From contig JAUNUL010000059.1 in NCBI GenBank assembly GCA_030538175.1, forward strand, positions 1-11,907: a stretch of 11,907 bases of DNA. The letters run 5' to 3'. A program made the translations under genes and the position numbers. The notes under the pieces were generated by a model that was not told the origin of the DNA, did not search any database, and was given only the letters and a program-made list of their open reading frames with translations. This DNA comes from Propionibacteriaceae bacterium. GTDB lineage: Bacteria > Actinomycetota > Actinomycetes > Propionibacteriales > Propionibacteriaceae. This document shows, in pieces, positions 7,788 to 11,907 of this stretch. Position 1 is the first letter of the stretch, and each line of letters begins with the position of its first letter.

Positions 7788-7793
7788 ATGACG

Positions 7794-8747
7794 GTGTCGC
7801 TGCTGGGCATGGGGGATGCAGGCCGTCCCGAGGGGTTCCGTTCCGGTTTCGCGTGCTTCGTGGGGCGCCCCAACGCAGGCAAATCGACGCTGACCAATGC
7901 GCTGGTCGGCAGCAAGATCGCCATCACCTCCTCGAAACCGCAGACGACCCGGCACGCGATCCGCGGCATCGTGCACCGACCGGATGCCCAGATGGTCCTG
8001 ATCGACACCCCGGGGCTGCACAAGCCACGCACGTTGTTGGGGGAGCGGCTCAACGACCTGGTCCATGAGACCTGGTCCGAAGTCGATGTGATCGGTGTCT
8101 GCCTGCCGGCGGATCAGCGCATCGGTCCCGGTGACACCTATCTGGTGTCACAGATCGCCGAGTTGCCGCAACGCCCGAAGCTGATCGCCCTGGCCACCAA
8201 GTCCGACCTCGTGTCGGGGGAGCGCATGCGGCAGCACCTGCTTGCTATCGCGGCGATGGAGGAGAAGCTCGACATCCGCTGGGAGCACATGGTGCCGGTG
8301 TCCGCGGTCGCCGGTGACCAGGTCGACAAGGTGGGCGATCTTCTGGTGTCGTTGTTGCCGGAGGGGCCGGCGTACTATCCCGACGGCGAAATCACCGACG
8401 AACCCACCGAAACGCTGGTCGCCGAACTCATCCGGGAAGCTGCCCTCGAGGGCGTTCGCGACGAACTGCCGCACTCGATCATCGTCACCGTCGAGGAGAT
8501 GGAGCTGCGGGCCAACCGCCCGGAGGACAAACCGCTGCTCGACATCTTTGCCAACCTCATCGTTGAGCGGGATTCCCAGAAGGGGATCATCATCGGCCAT
8601 CGCGGGACCAGGCTTCGGGAAGTCGGCTCGGCGGCTCGCCAGCAGATCCAGCGGCTGTTGGGTACGCCGGTGCATCTCGACCTGCGCGTCAAGGTCCTGA
8701 AGGAGTGGCAGCGCGATCCCAAACACCTGAACCGACTCGGTTTCTGA
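7794..8747 (+). CDS. era: GTPase Era
   Basis: Era is a ribosome-assembly GTPase binding the 3' end of 16S rRNA through a KH domain. Counted from GTG 7794 (317 residues), G1 is GRPNAGKS (24-31), the G2 region PQTTRH (49-54), G3 DTPG (71-74), G4 TKSD (135-138, the T-K-x-D form also seen in mycobacterial Era) and G5 SAV (170-172). The conserved PAYYPDG.ITDEP linker follows, then a C-terminal KH domain with GIIIGHRG (264-271), where many relatives read GKGG or GKxG. It ends in WQRDPKHLNRLGF. GTG 7794 is preferred over ATG 7788 because AAGGAG directly abuts that ATG. It closes the phoH-ybeY-CBS-era block. Confidence 0.96.
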   Translation: MSLLGMGDAGRPEGFRSGFACFVGRPNAGKSTLTNALVGSKIAITSSKPQTTRHAIRGIVHRPDAQMVLIDTPGLHKPRTLLGERLNDLVHETWSEVDVIGVCLPADQRIGPGDTYLVSQIAELPQRPKLIALATKSDLVSGERMRQHLLAIAAMEEKLDIRWEHMVPVSAVAGDQVDKVGDLLVSLLPEGPAYYPDGEITDEPTETLVAELIREAALEGVRDELPHSIIVTVEEMELRANRPEDKPLLDIFANLIVERDSQKGIIIGHRGTRLREVGSAARQQIQRLLGTPVHLDLRVKVLKEWQRDPKHLNRLGF

Positions 8748-8828: not shown

Positions 8829-10274
<1,446 letters not shown>

Positions 10275-10440: not shown

Positions 10441-10854
10441 ATGGCCACCGAAACCACTGGCACCGAGGACAGCACCCTCACCGACAGCGTTCGGGTCACC
10501 CGCACGCTGACGAAGCCGATCGACACCGTCTGGGCCGCGCTCATGACCGATGCCGGCGCGTCCGCGCTGCTCGGTGAAGGCGGTGAGCTGGGCAACAAGG
10601 GCGACGGCTGGCAGGCCGCCGACGGCACCTATGGCGTCACGCGCAGCTTCCACCCGCTGGAGCAGATCCGCTTCTCCTGGCACGCCGATGCCGACGCGCC
10701 GGCAACGCTGGTCGATCTCAGCATGAAGGCCGTCGACGACAACAGCACCCTGCTGGAGCTCGTTCACGAAAACCTCCCCGAGGACGCGGATCGCGACTAT
10801 CTCACCGAGAAGTGGGATTCGGCGTTGACCCGCATCGAAGAGCAGGCGAACTGA
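10441..10854 (+). CDS. SRPBCC/AHSA1-like (START-superfamily) protein
   Basis: This is a 137-residue soluble protein of the SRPBCC (Bet v 1-like) superfamily, closest in pattern to the AHSA1 group. It opens with a strand-helix VRVTRTLTKPIDTVWAALM (about 17-35), followed by a middle region ending in LEQIRFSWHAD (about 73-83), alternating strands PATLVDLSMKAVDDNSTLLELVHENLP (about 87-113), and a C-terminal helix YLTEKWDSALTRIEEQA (about 120-136). The family binds hydrophobic ligands or acts as a chaperone cofactor; no specific ligand or reaction can be given. The ATG at 10441 has GGAAGG at 7 nt. It is flanked by terminator-like hairpins on both sides, so it seems to be transcribed alone between argG and leuA. 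Confidence 0.82.
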   Translation: MATETTGTEDSTLTDSVRVTRTLTKPIDTVWAALMTDAGASALLGEGGELGNKGDGWQAADGTYGVTRSFHPLEQIRFSWHADADAPATLVDLSMKAVDDNSTLLELVHENLPEDADRDYLTEKWDSALTRIEEQAN

Positions 10855-10860
10855 CGCCCG

Positions 10861-10932
10861 CGTATTCGGCATGCGGCGGTCGTTGCTGCACCGCGGCACC
10901 AACGACCGGCCCCCGGCCCCCGCATTCGGCAT
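10861..10932 (+). repeat. 12-bp direct repeat, 60-bp period, within the terminator pair
   Basis: CGTATTCGGCAT (10861-10872) recurs as CGCATTCGGCAT (10921-10932), 11 of 12 identical. Each copy sits in the loop region of a CCGC/GCGG or CCCCCGCA/TGCGGGGG stem, suggesting that the two-hairpin array arose by local duplication. Confidence 0.5.
10877..10908 (+). terminator. Terminator hairpin 1 after the SRPBCC gene
   Basis: CGGTCGTTG (10877-10885) and CAACGACCG (10900-10908) are perfect 9-bp complements; after a C/C mismatch the stem continues with TGC/GCA. It begins 22 nt after the stop codon. The next 5 nt are GC-rich, not T-rich. Confidence 0.55.
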
Positions 10933-10948
10933 AGCCGTGCGGGGGTCG
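10914..10948 (+). terminator. Terminator hairpin 2 after the SRPBCC gene
   Basis: Arms CGGCCCCCGCA (10914-10924) and TGCGGGGGTCG (10938-10948) form an 11-bp stem with one G-U. After a TT bulge an inner CGGC/GCCG stem closes a 3-nt loop. It is the strongest stem-loop of the window and lies between the SRPBCC gene and the leu promoter. Confidence 0.58.
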
Positions 10949-10953
10949 TCCAT

Positions 10954-10990
10954 GTGCACGGCATGAGCGTTCAGGTGCGCGGCATGAGCG
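10954..10990 (+). repeat. 16-bp direct repeat with 21-bp period upstream of the leu promoter
   Basis: GTGCACGGCATGAGCG (10954-10969) and GTGCGCGGCATGAGCG (10975-10990) match at 15 of 16 positions. The period of 21 bp equals two helical turns, so bound proteins would lie on the same DNA face. Relative to a transcript start at 11019 they cover about -65 to -50 and -44 to -29, overlapping the place of a missing -35. This is the position expected for an activator or a repressor tandem site; the regulator is unknown. Confidence 0.5.
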
Positions 10991-11003
10991 CGGAGGTGAT
11001 GAG

Positions 11004-11018
11004 TGTTATTGTTCCGGC
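11004..11018 (+). promoter_or_regulatory. Extended -10 promoter of the leu leader
   Basis: TATTGT (11007-11012) fits TAnnnT and is preceded by TGT, giving an extended -10 TGn. It is followed by 6 nt and then the ATG of the 15-codon leader, which lacks a Shine-Dalgarno. No -35 is recognisable; the direct repeat occupies that region. Confidence 0.5.
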
Positions 11019-11066
11019 ATGGCTCGGTCGACCCTCCTTCTTGGGTGCCGCAGCGAGGTCCTCTGA
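11019..11066 (+). CDS. leuL: Putative leucine leader peptide (MARSTLLLGCRSEVL)
   Basis: A 15-codon open frame contains three consecutive Leu codons (CTC CTT CTT, 11034-11042) and ends in Leu before TGA (11064-11066), i.e. 4 Leu in 15 residues. It lies 72 nt before leuA, exactly where an attenuation leader would be. Translation would be leaderless from the extended -10 at 11004-11012. The left arm of the downstream 12-bp stem (11048-11059) lies inside the frame, and the stop lies in its loop, so ribosome position would affect folding. No protein evidence exists; the assignment rests on Leu content, position and structure. Confidence 0.6.
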   Translation: MARSTLLLGCRSEVL

Positions 11067-11134
11067 CGGGATGGCCACCTCGCTGCGGAGTCTCGTGCGC
11101 CGTCCGCCGATGACCATTCGAATCAGCGAGGACC
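11048..11134 (+). promoter_or_regulatory. leuA leader RNA: stem-loop with loop-to-Shine-Dalgarno pairing (LEU-element-like pseudoknot)
   Basis: CCGCAGCGAGGT (11048-11059) and ACCTCGCTGCGG (11077-11088) are perfect 12-bp complements with a 17-nt loop. The loop start CCTCTGA (11060-11066) can pair with 11123-11131 (TCA, GC bulge, GAGG), which contains the leuA Shine-Dalgarno GAGGA (11128-11132), giving an H-type pseudoknot. If the stem is opened, the pairing grows to GGTCCTC with GAGGACC (11057-11063 with 11128-11134). A competing stem GCGGA/TCCGC (11085-11089 with 11103-11107) would use part of the right arm. A conserved pseudoknot called the LEU element is reported before leuA in actinobacteria; I recall this from the literature and could not align it here. 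Confidence 0.6.
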
Positions 11135-11138
11135 ACCA

Positions 11139-11907
11139 ATGAATTTCTCTCCCAATGCCTTCGGCACCCGTGTGCAGACGCGCCCCGTGCAGCAGCCGAG
11201 CCCGATGCCCTATCACCGCTACACCGCGTTCCAGCCGGTGGATGTGCCGGATCGGACGTGGCCGGCGAACAAGATCACCAAGGCCCCGCGCTGGCTGTCG
11301 ACGGACCTGCGCGACGGCAACCAGGCGCTCATCGATCCGATGACGCCAGCCCGCAAGCGCCGCATGTTCGACATGCTGGTGCAGATGGGCTATAAGGAGA
11401 TCGAGATCGGTTTCCCGTCGGCCTCGCAGACCGACTTCGATTTCGTCCGCCAGCTCATCGAAGAGGACGCGATCCCCGATGACGTGCACATCTCCGTGCT
11501 CACCCAGGCCCGTGAGGATCTGATTGAGCGGACCGTGCAGTCCCTGGTGGGGGCGAACAAGGCGAACATCCACCTCTACAACGCGACCGCGGAGCTGTTC
11601 CGTCGCGTCGTGTTCGGCATCGACGAGGCCGAGTGCATCGCGCTGGCCAAGCGTGGCACCGAGATGGTCATGAAGTACGCCGAGCAGACGCTGGGCGATG
11701 TGAAGTTCGGCTATCAGTATTCGCCGGAGATCTTCACCCAGACCCCGACCGACTTCGCCATCGAGGTCTGCAACGGCGTCATGGACGTCTGGCAGCCCGA
11801 GGCCGACCGGGAGATCATCCTGAACCTGCCGGCGACGGTGGAGATGTCGACGCCGAACACCTACGCCGATCAGATCGAGTATTTCGGCCGCCACATCCGC
11901 AACCGCG
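11139..11907 (+). CDS. leuA: 2-isopropylmalate synthase, 3'-truncated by the window edge
   Basis: LeuA condenses acetyl-CoA with 2-oxoisovalerate, the first committed step of leucine synthesis. 256 residues are visible of a family normally about 560-640 residues long. The actinobacterial/fungal-type N-terminus is followed by the HMGL-like barrel: STDLRDGNQALIDPM (54-68) with the catalytic Arg58 and metal ligand Asp59, then YKEIEIGFPSASQTDFDFVR (85-104), KANIHLYNATAELFRR and NLPATVEMSTPNTYADQIEYF. The later metal-binding His motif and the C-terminal leucine-binding regulatory domain fall outside the window. The ATG at 11139 has GAGGA (11128-11132) with 6 nt spacing. Feedback by leucine is typical for the family, and the leader suggests an additional RNA-level control. 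Confidence 0.96.
   Translation, partial: MNFSPNAFGTRVQTRPVQQPSPMPYHRYTAFQPVDVPDRTWPANKITKAPRWLSTDLRDGNQALIDPMTPARKRRMFDMLVQMGYKEIEIGFPSASQTDFDFVRQLIEEDAIPDDVHISVLTQAREDLIERTVQSLVGANKANIHLYNATAELFRRVVFGIDEAECIALAKRGTEMVMKYAEQTLGDVKFGYQYSPEIFTQTPTDFAIEVCNGVMDVWQPEADREIILNLPATVEMSTPNTYADQIEYFGRHIRNR

Follow-up and report, generated by a model that had tools for sequence, protein, structure and literature searches.

A pseudoknotted RNA known as the LEU element has been described since 2005 in front of actinobacterial leuA genes. Leader mutants of Streptomyces coelicolor leuA reportedly had effects inconsistent with classical attenuation (Craster 1999, cited in PMC1262725). In S. lividans TK24, a leader peptide called LeuL1, MRFGLLLLSCRGEGL, precedes leuA; the passages of PMC8079986 that deal with it describe a leaderless frame with an experimental transcript start and without a typical terminator.

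We analysed a window of 11,907 nucleotides from a Propionibacteriaceae bacterium (assembly GCA_030538175.1, whole contig JAUNUL010000059.1, forward strand). Between positions 7788 and 10854 it carries, in this order, what we take from the translations to be an era-like gene (7788-8747), an argininosuccinate-synthase-like gene (8856-10274) and a small SRPBCC-like gene (10441-10854), followed by leuA. Judged by its sequence, the frame at 11139 is presumably leuA, the name also given in the original prediction. The closest titled relatives of its product are all from Propionibacteriaceae: a 'Propionibacterium sp.' MAG, Granulicoccus and Enemella.

Read directly, the sequence contains the regulatory anatomy that had been noted at this locus, namely an extended -10, a short frame with Leu codons, a 12-bp stem and a stop codon in its loop. 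By its position before leuA, its Leu run and its pseudoknot, the region is a further member of the LEU element. The suspicion that such a combination was only partly described did not hold: leader, pseudoknot and a stem between Leu codons and the Shine-Dalgarno are all already in Seliverstov 2005 (PMC1262725). The anatomy was right; the pairing held to be central, of the stem loop with the leuA Shine-Dalgarno, was not borne out. Rfam 15 covariance models give no match at the gathering score over the whole window, nor does 10900-11200 match any of them when E values of up to 10 are admitted.

Table 1. Features of the element in the window, and loci carrying related copies before other genes
Feature	Location	Strand	Remarks
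Extended -10, TGTTATTGT	11004..11012	+	hexamer TATTGT at 11007-11012, TG at 11004-11005; no -35 match
Leader ORF, MARSTLLLGCRSEVL-stop	11019..11066	+	start coincides with or adjoins the expected 5' end of the transcript; lacks a Shine-Dalgarno
Leu codons CTC CTT CTT	11034..11042	+	serve as 5' strand when pairing with the Shine-Dalgarno in the 'base stem' of 2005 (weak in the window)
H1 left arm (segment 1)	11048..11059	+	inside the leader frame; from covariation and sequence
GGTCCTC, alternative anti-Shine-Dalgarno	11057..11063	+	pairs with 11128-11134; not family-wide
H2 5' strand, GGATGGC	11069..11075	+	in the H1 loop; covaries with the downstream segment
H1 right arm (segment 2)	11077..11088	+	11078-11085 alternatively pairs with 11124-11131
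H2 3' strand, GCCGTCC	11099..11105	+	downstream of H1; covaries with the loop
leuA Shine-Dalgarno region, CAGCGAGG (segment 3)	11124..11131	+	copies part of the left arm; complements 11078-11085
leuA (2-isopropylmalate synthase), 5' part	11139..11906	+	runs off the window end
leuC copies with Leu runs, family f39	L204, L218, L220, L243, L244, L248, L252, L255, L257		directly upstream of leuC
leuB copies with Val/Ile/Leu mixes	L223, L225, L227, L228, L232-L235, L241, L249-L251, L253, L258-L260, L262-L264, L272, L273, L276, L277		
Leu/Val-codon copies before small proteins, family f7	L239, L246, L269, L271, L274		

For the comparisons we started from 170 loci. One without an accepted leuA start (L136) was dropped, and merging of identical upstream stretches left 149, five of them without a parsable hairpin: L056, L077 and L099 are cut short, L071 and L152 lack the element. 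Another of the 144 parsed sequences was set aside, its element lying too near the chosen start, and removal of sequences at least 85% alike reduced the remaining 143 to 91 representatives. Alignment A1 holds 83 of these, eight with long loops being omitted for alignment length. Subsets of the 91 served for the helix score (78), the folding model (87) and the extension test (57, those with GAGG and a YYYC right arm). A second set of 35 from outside the order was drawn from 38 parsed leuA-linked loci.

Six bases separate the extended -10 from the leader ATG at 11019; a sigma-70 consensus scan of 10860-11300 finds no two-hexamer promoter. The spacing and its conservation in relatives suggest that the leader is translated from a leaderless transcript. 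Among 89 relatives with at least 70 bases upstream, 87 have an in-frame ATG or GTG 5-10 nt 3' of TANNNT. Shuffling the upstream DNA leaves a mean of 2.3 (maximum 7), and the remaining reading frames score 2 and 1; the leaderless geometry that had been proposed from the window is a property of the family. Of 88 leader starts, 2 have an SD-like core in front of them, compared with 80 of 89 leuA starts. This geometry agrees with LeuL1, presented as leaderless in the part of PMC8079986 devoted to it, and one of our model matches before a leuA (L215) encodes the same 15 residues as LeuL1.

The frame runs through the Leu codons into the left arm in all 91 non-redundant relatives, the window included, with tails such as CRSEA, CRSEV and RRSEA. 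Three or four Leu stand among the six codons before the arm in 86 of the 91, so that the Leu run is conserved as anticipated, and in 90 of them the frame closes within the H1 loop or right at its edge. The window has 5 nt between the last Leu codon and the left arm, and its stop codon (11064-11066) sits in the loop (11060-11076). The commonest Leu codon in the leader runs of the 91 relatives is CTT (109 of 278); the 256 leuA codons in the window contain no CTT, 10 CTG and 4 CTC. Rare-codon sensing or Shine-Dalgarno pairing could explain the preference.

In H1, all 12 pairs between 11048-11059 and 11077-11088 are Watson-Crick (-24.5 kcal/mol). The single-sequence fold of 11019-11150 stands only slightly above shuffles (z -1.87, with 11 of 200 shuffles as good), so the window alone is no proof of structure and the proof is supplied by the relatives. 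Across the 83-sequence alignment, 11 of the H1 pairs are paired in 98.7% of cells. Double changes occupy 34 cells versus 5.2 in shuffles, a signal lost on shifting by one to three columns; the claim of a stem with its left arm inside the leader frame is thus borne out by covariation.

We further compared the duplex energy of each sequence's own two segments with that of segments exchanged between species. The permutations leave some relatedness, against which the second set of 35 and flat control pairs serve as guard. The controls, Leu codons with the downstream segment, left arm with the downstream segment, and downstream segment with Shine-Dalgarno, gave z values of +1.7, -0.05 and +0.5 in the 91 representatives and 0.0, +0.7 and +0.3 in the 35. 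For H1, z is -12.9 (91) and -7.1 (35). The loop and the segment downstream of H1 are likewise cognate, with z -5.8 and -3.7, and a position-resolved helix score for the same pair, applied to the 78 representatives whose spacer is long enough, reaches z +7.9. In 57 of these 78, two or three bases separate the corresponding helix, H2, from the right arm that follows it.

The Shine-Dalgarno has partners of its own. Its region CAGCGAGG has the same sequence as a portion of the left arm, so that the right arm can pair with either: in the window, 11078-11085 form 8 bp with the Shine-Dalgarno region (-15.3 kcal/mol, versus -24.5 for H1). Swapping gives z -5.3 (91) and -2.0 (35, p 0.02) for the right arm with the Shine-Dalgarno, and z -4.6 and -2.2 (p 0.016) for the Leu codons with it; the latter duplex is weak in the window, at -7.8 kcal/mol beside alternatives of -15.3 and -14.7. 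Judged by these sequence comparisons, the right arm of H1, which the original prediction did not consider, is the strongest partner of the Shine-Dalgarno across the family, followed by the Leu-codon run. The right arm also matches CAGC, outside the usual Shine-Dalgarno core, above expectation (p 0.0006, n=57). By group, this extension has p 0.019 in Propionibacteriaceae (n=30) and p 0.053 in the others (n=27); 11 of those others fall outside the Nocardioidales-like group as well, and these lack it (p 0.54). The best uninterrupted pairing of right arm and Shine-Dalgarno has 6 bp or fewer in 57 of the 91 representatives.

We now propose, as the reading that we hold to be rather probable, that the ribosome on the leader decides how the leader RNA folds and hence whether the leuA ribosome site is free. 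In low leucine, the ribosome would wait on the Leu codons and cover this run, with which the Shine-Dalgarno could otherwise pair. The left arm would be free from about 11048, H1 and H2 would form, the right arm would be held and the Shine-Dalgarno left open. With enough leucine, the ribosome would reach the stop codon at 11064, covering left arm and loop, and the freed right arm could pair with the Shine-Dalgarno. After its departure the complete element would also keep the site closed, since the codon run would then be paired with the Shine-Dalgarno. The controlled step would be translation, not mRNA decay or termination.

The downstream edge of a ribosome lies 13 nt beyond the first base of the A-site. 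With this assumed edge, placing the A-site at Leu 1 leaves the RNA free from 11048, exactly where the left arm begins. Placing it at the stop codon leaves the RNA free from 11078, exactly where the stretch of the right arm complementary to the Shine-Dalgarno begins. The resulting sign is what one would expect for a biosynthetic gene: open in leucine shortage and closed in plenty.

A three-state thermodynamic folding model could not tell a stall at Leu 1 from a ribosome at the stop codon. Averaged over 87 representatives, accessibility of the Shine-Dalgarno came to 0.38 for a ribosome at Leu 1, 0.34 for one at the stop codon and 0.22 for one at Leu 3, against 0.18 without a ribosome, a lower value that follows partly from the longer RNA; the window gave 0.37, 0.20, 0.06 and 0.11, respectively. 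The Leu 1 value was the higher one in 50 of 87. The difference between Leu 1 and stop was 0.043 for cognate sequences and 0.001 to 0.057 in six controls with swapped Shine-Dalgarno, and the Leu 3 stall falls below the stop codon, the wrong order for the proposal. As the model does not discriminate between Leu 1 and stop, we treat the sign of control as an inference.

Leader peptides classically act through transcription attenuation, intrinsic or Rho-dependent, and such control within the leader could take the place of translation control here too. Short U runs follow H1 in several relatives, and the C. glutamicum authors have this mode in mind in the relevant portions of PMC4046766 and PMC3890552. 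In the window, however, H1 is followed by AGTCTCGT, without a T run, and by our argument H1 as a terminator would have the wrong sign, being free to form while the ribosome waits at the Leu codons. A terminator scan of 10860-11300 returned no sites; it admits loops of 3-8 bases and is thus blind to H1. We regard transcription attenuation as unlikely and keep to a ribosome that sets the fold around the leuA start, for which the copies of the element at other genes are informative.

With a covariance model built from 83 sequences we surveyed 60 genomes, mostly picked for two or more matches, so that the frequencies given here are not class estimates. They contain 46 + 73 = 119 matches, 87 of which were classified; among the rest, many have the highest score in the genome concerned. 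The downstream gene is leuA in 45 cases, leuB in 23 and leuC in 9, and ten matches have no LeuA, LeuB or LeuC match behind them. The leuB copies come from 23 genomes of 7 families and the leuC copies from 9 genomes of one family (Table 1). Both genes were called by similarity to one protein each; the first 70 residues of these references match the NCBIfam models for leuC and 3-isopropylmalate dehydrogenase. In some copies (L225, L241) a short frame ending DRRDNGG-like stands between element and leuB.

Five of the ten other matches precede LeuA_dimer-like small proteins, probably stand-alone LeuA_dimer (LeuA allosteric) domains: among the four scanned (all except L271), three exceed the Pfam LeuA_dimer (PF08502) cut-off and L269 falls below it (18.2 vs 24.9 bits). 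The remaining five comprise one at a contig end (L221), one inside a coding frame (L242) and L240, L268 and L278.

The codon run changes with the gene downstream. Within the six codons that precede the arm, 23/23 leuB copies, 6/45 leuA copies and 1/9 leuC copies have Val or Ile, and at least three Leu are present in 0/23, 41/45 and 9/9, respectively. This count covers 85 of the 87 matches, L240 and L278 being dropped for poor hairpins, and its 45 leuA rows include the misparsed L280. Runs before leuB read, for example, VLVLI, LVVI, VRIL and IFVL. A second model, made without the codon-run columns from 80 sequences including such copies, found matches in 40/40 genomes, mostly in known places, plus four additional weak ones (E 3e-4 to 0.01).

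These observations bear on the 2005 proposal of a regulatory protein that binds the element, in which case the peptide frame would be incidental or auxiliary. The pseudoknot is indeed compact and conserved, the distribution of the element was matched to a helicase-like protein, and the leader-codon mutants cited there lacked classical behaviour (PMC1262725). A protein site, however, needs neither a frame closed at the loop nor a leaderless start, both nearly universal in the relatives, and the codon run varies with the downstream gene on a constant RNA fold. Such an exchange is best explained by reading by a ribosome and argues against a pure protein site, which we consider quite improbable; the Val/Ile runs that replace Leu in the leuB copies favour a ribosome-read sensor. 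In our searches of open-licence PMC papers we found no mention of the leuB, leuC and LeuA_dimer copies, and the regulon with exchanged codons may be the part that is new.

The original prediction had the ribosome at work as well, through another pairing: the H1 loop (CCTCTGA, or 11057-11063) would bind the leuA Shine-Dalgarno as a pseudoknot, prevented by a ribosome slowed at the Leu codons. The matches exist in the window. CCTCTGA (11060-11066) complements TCA (11123-11125) and GAGG (11128-11131), with GC between them, and GGUCCUC (11057-11063) pairs with GAGGACC (11128-11134) within a duplex of 11056-11069 and the Shine-Dalgarno of -14.7 kcal/mol. By eye, 5-6 of the latter pairs are kept in three of four other genomes of the genus (L002, L003, L006) and the match is missing from the fourth (L005). 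Direct pairing of 11057-11066 with the Shine-Dalgarno, raised as a further option, is therefore reasonable in the window and most of these relatives, but it is not general.

Across the family, cognate loop and Shine-Dalgarno pair no better than swapped ones (z -1.4 in the 91, +1.2 in the 35), so the complementarity seen in the window does not go beyond chance in relatives. The loop already has another covarying partner, the downstream segment (11099-11105 in the window). As the loop covaries with that segment and not with the Shine-Dalgarno, the conserved pseudoknot is H1 plus the pairing of the loop with the downstream segment, and both helices are kept in the window. A pseudoknot of loop and Shine-Dalgarno is rejected by the swap tests as a general feature and is possible in the window's genus; as the basis of control we think it very unlikely.

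Conserved sequence without regulation, a chance hairpin or a remnant of coding DNA, would fit the modest single-sequence fold and is practically negligible in view of the covariation, the leaderless geometry and model matches in 378 of 394 sampled genomes of the class.

Good-quality genomes of the class have matches in 349 of 359 cases. A phylum-wide sample gave matches in 32 of 296 genomes, 26 of the 32 within the class; of the six outside it, two are weak and four, from two families, are strong, with E values no worse than 3.6e-6. Sixteen class genomes have no match: seven lack a leuA match, two have only a distant one, two (G177, G446) carry a diverged element, and five of family f29 show none at E up to 1, one of which has its leuA at a contig end. 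In the loci of 80 titled relatives, a match lies upstream of leuA in 77, one of them (L056) cut by the contig end; of the misses, L077 and L099 have 40 or fewer bases upstream and the MAG contig L071 is a true miss.

Most sampled Propionibacteriaceae carry the element. In one genome of the window's family (G038), leuA is present and the element was not found: in L152 and L288, leuA directly follows the end of what we take to be era, with no element. Two Cutibacterium contigs (L081, L096) carry it; P. acnes was stated to lack the LEU element (PMC1262725).

Taken together, the LEU element could be a movable, ribosome-read sensor of branched-chain amino acids, and we give even chances to this wider picture: the fold would be kept and the codon cassette exchanged, a leucine regulon would extend across the class, and the right arm would take part in a three-way competition, paired with the left arm or the Shine-Dalgarno. 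Actinobacteria include antibiotic producers, amino-acid producers and pathogens, and their leucine control has been tied to this RNA element since 2005. The present tests single out the covarying helices and replace the idea of a loop:Shine-Dalgarno contact by two testable pairings, and the copies whose codon run follows the downstream gene constitute a natural experiment. If the scheme is confirmed, the choice between attenuator, protein site and riboswitch becomes testable, and the element can be annotated in most genomes of the class.

Among known systems, leaderless poly-cysteine ORFs of mycobacteria reportedly act as amino-acid attenuators, to go by the title of a 2020 report by Canestrari; these too would be short leaderless ORFs, with a different amino acid. 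Corynebacterium leaders share the Leu run before leuA, as in MNRANLLLLRRGGSQA of C. diphtheriae, and the sections of PMC4046766, PMC3890552 and PMC5784534 concerned with them treat them as (transcription) attenuators and leave a pseudoknot unmentioned. LeuL1 of S. lividans is likewise a leaderless Leu leader before leuA without a typical terminator; within the portion of PMC8079986 that covers it, the transcript start is experimental, whereas ours is predicted from sequence. The closest counterpart, in a comparison based on its text, is the LEU element of PMC1262725, with the same place before leuA, a leader frame with a Leu run and a pseudoknot; its base stem of Leu codons and Shine-Dalgarno is supported across the family here and weak in the window. 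The 2005 report lists leuA and one transposase as downstream genes; here we find leuB, leuC and LeuA_dimer-like genes as well, with changed codon runs, and we add the right arm of H1 as a covarying partner of the Shine-Dalgarno.
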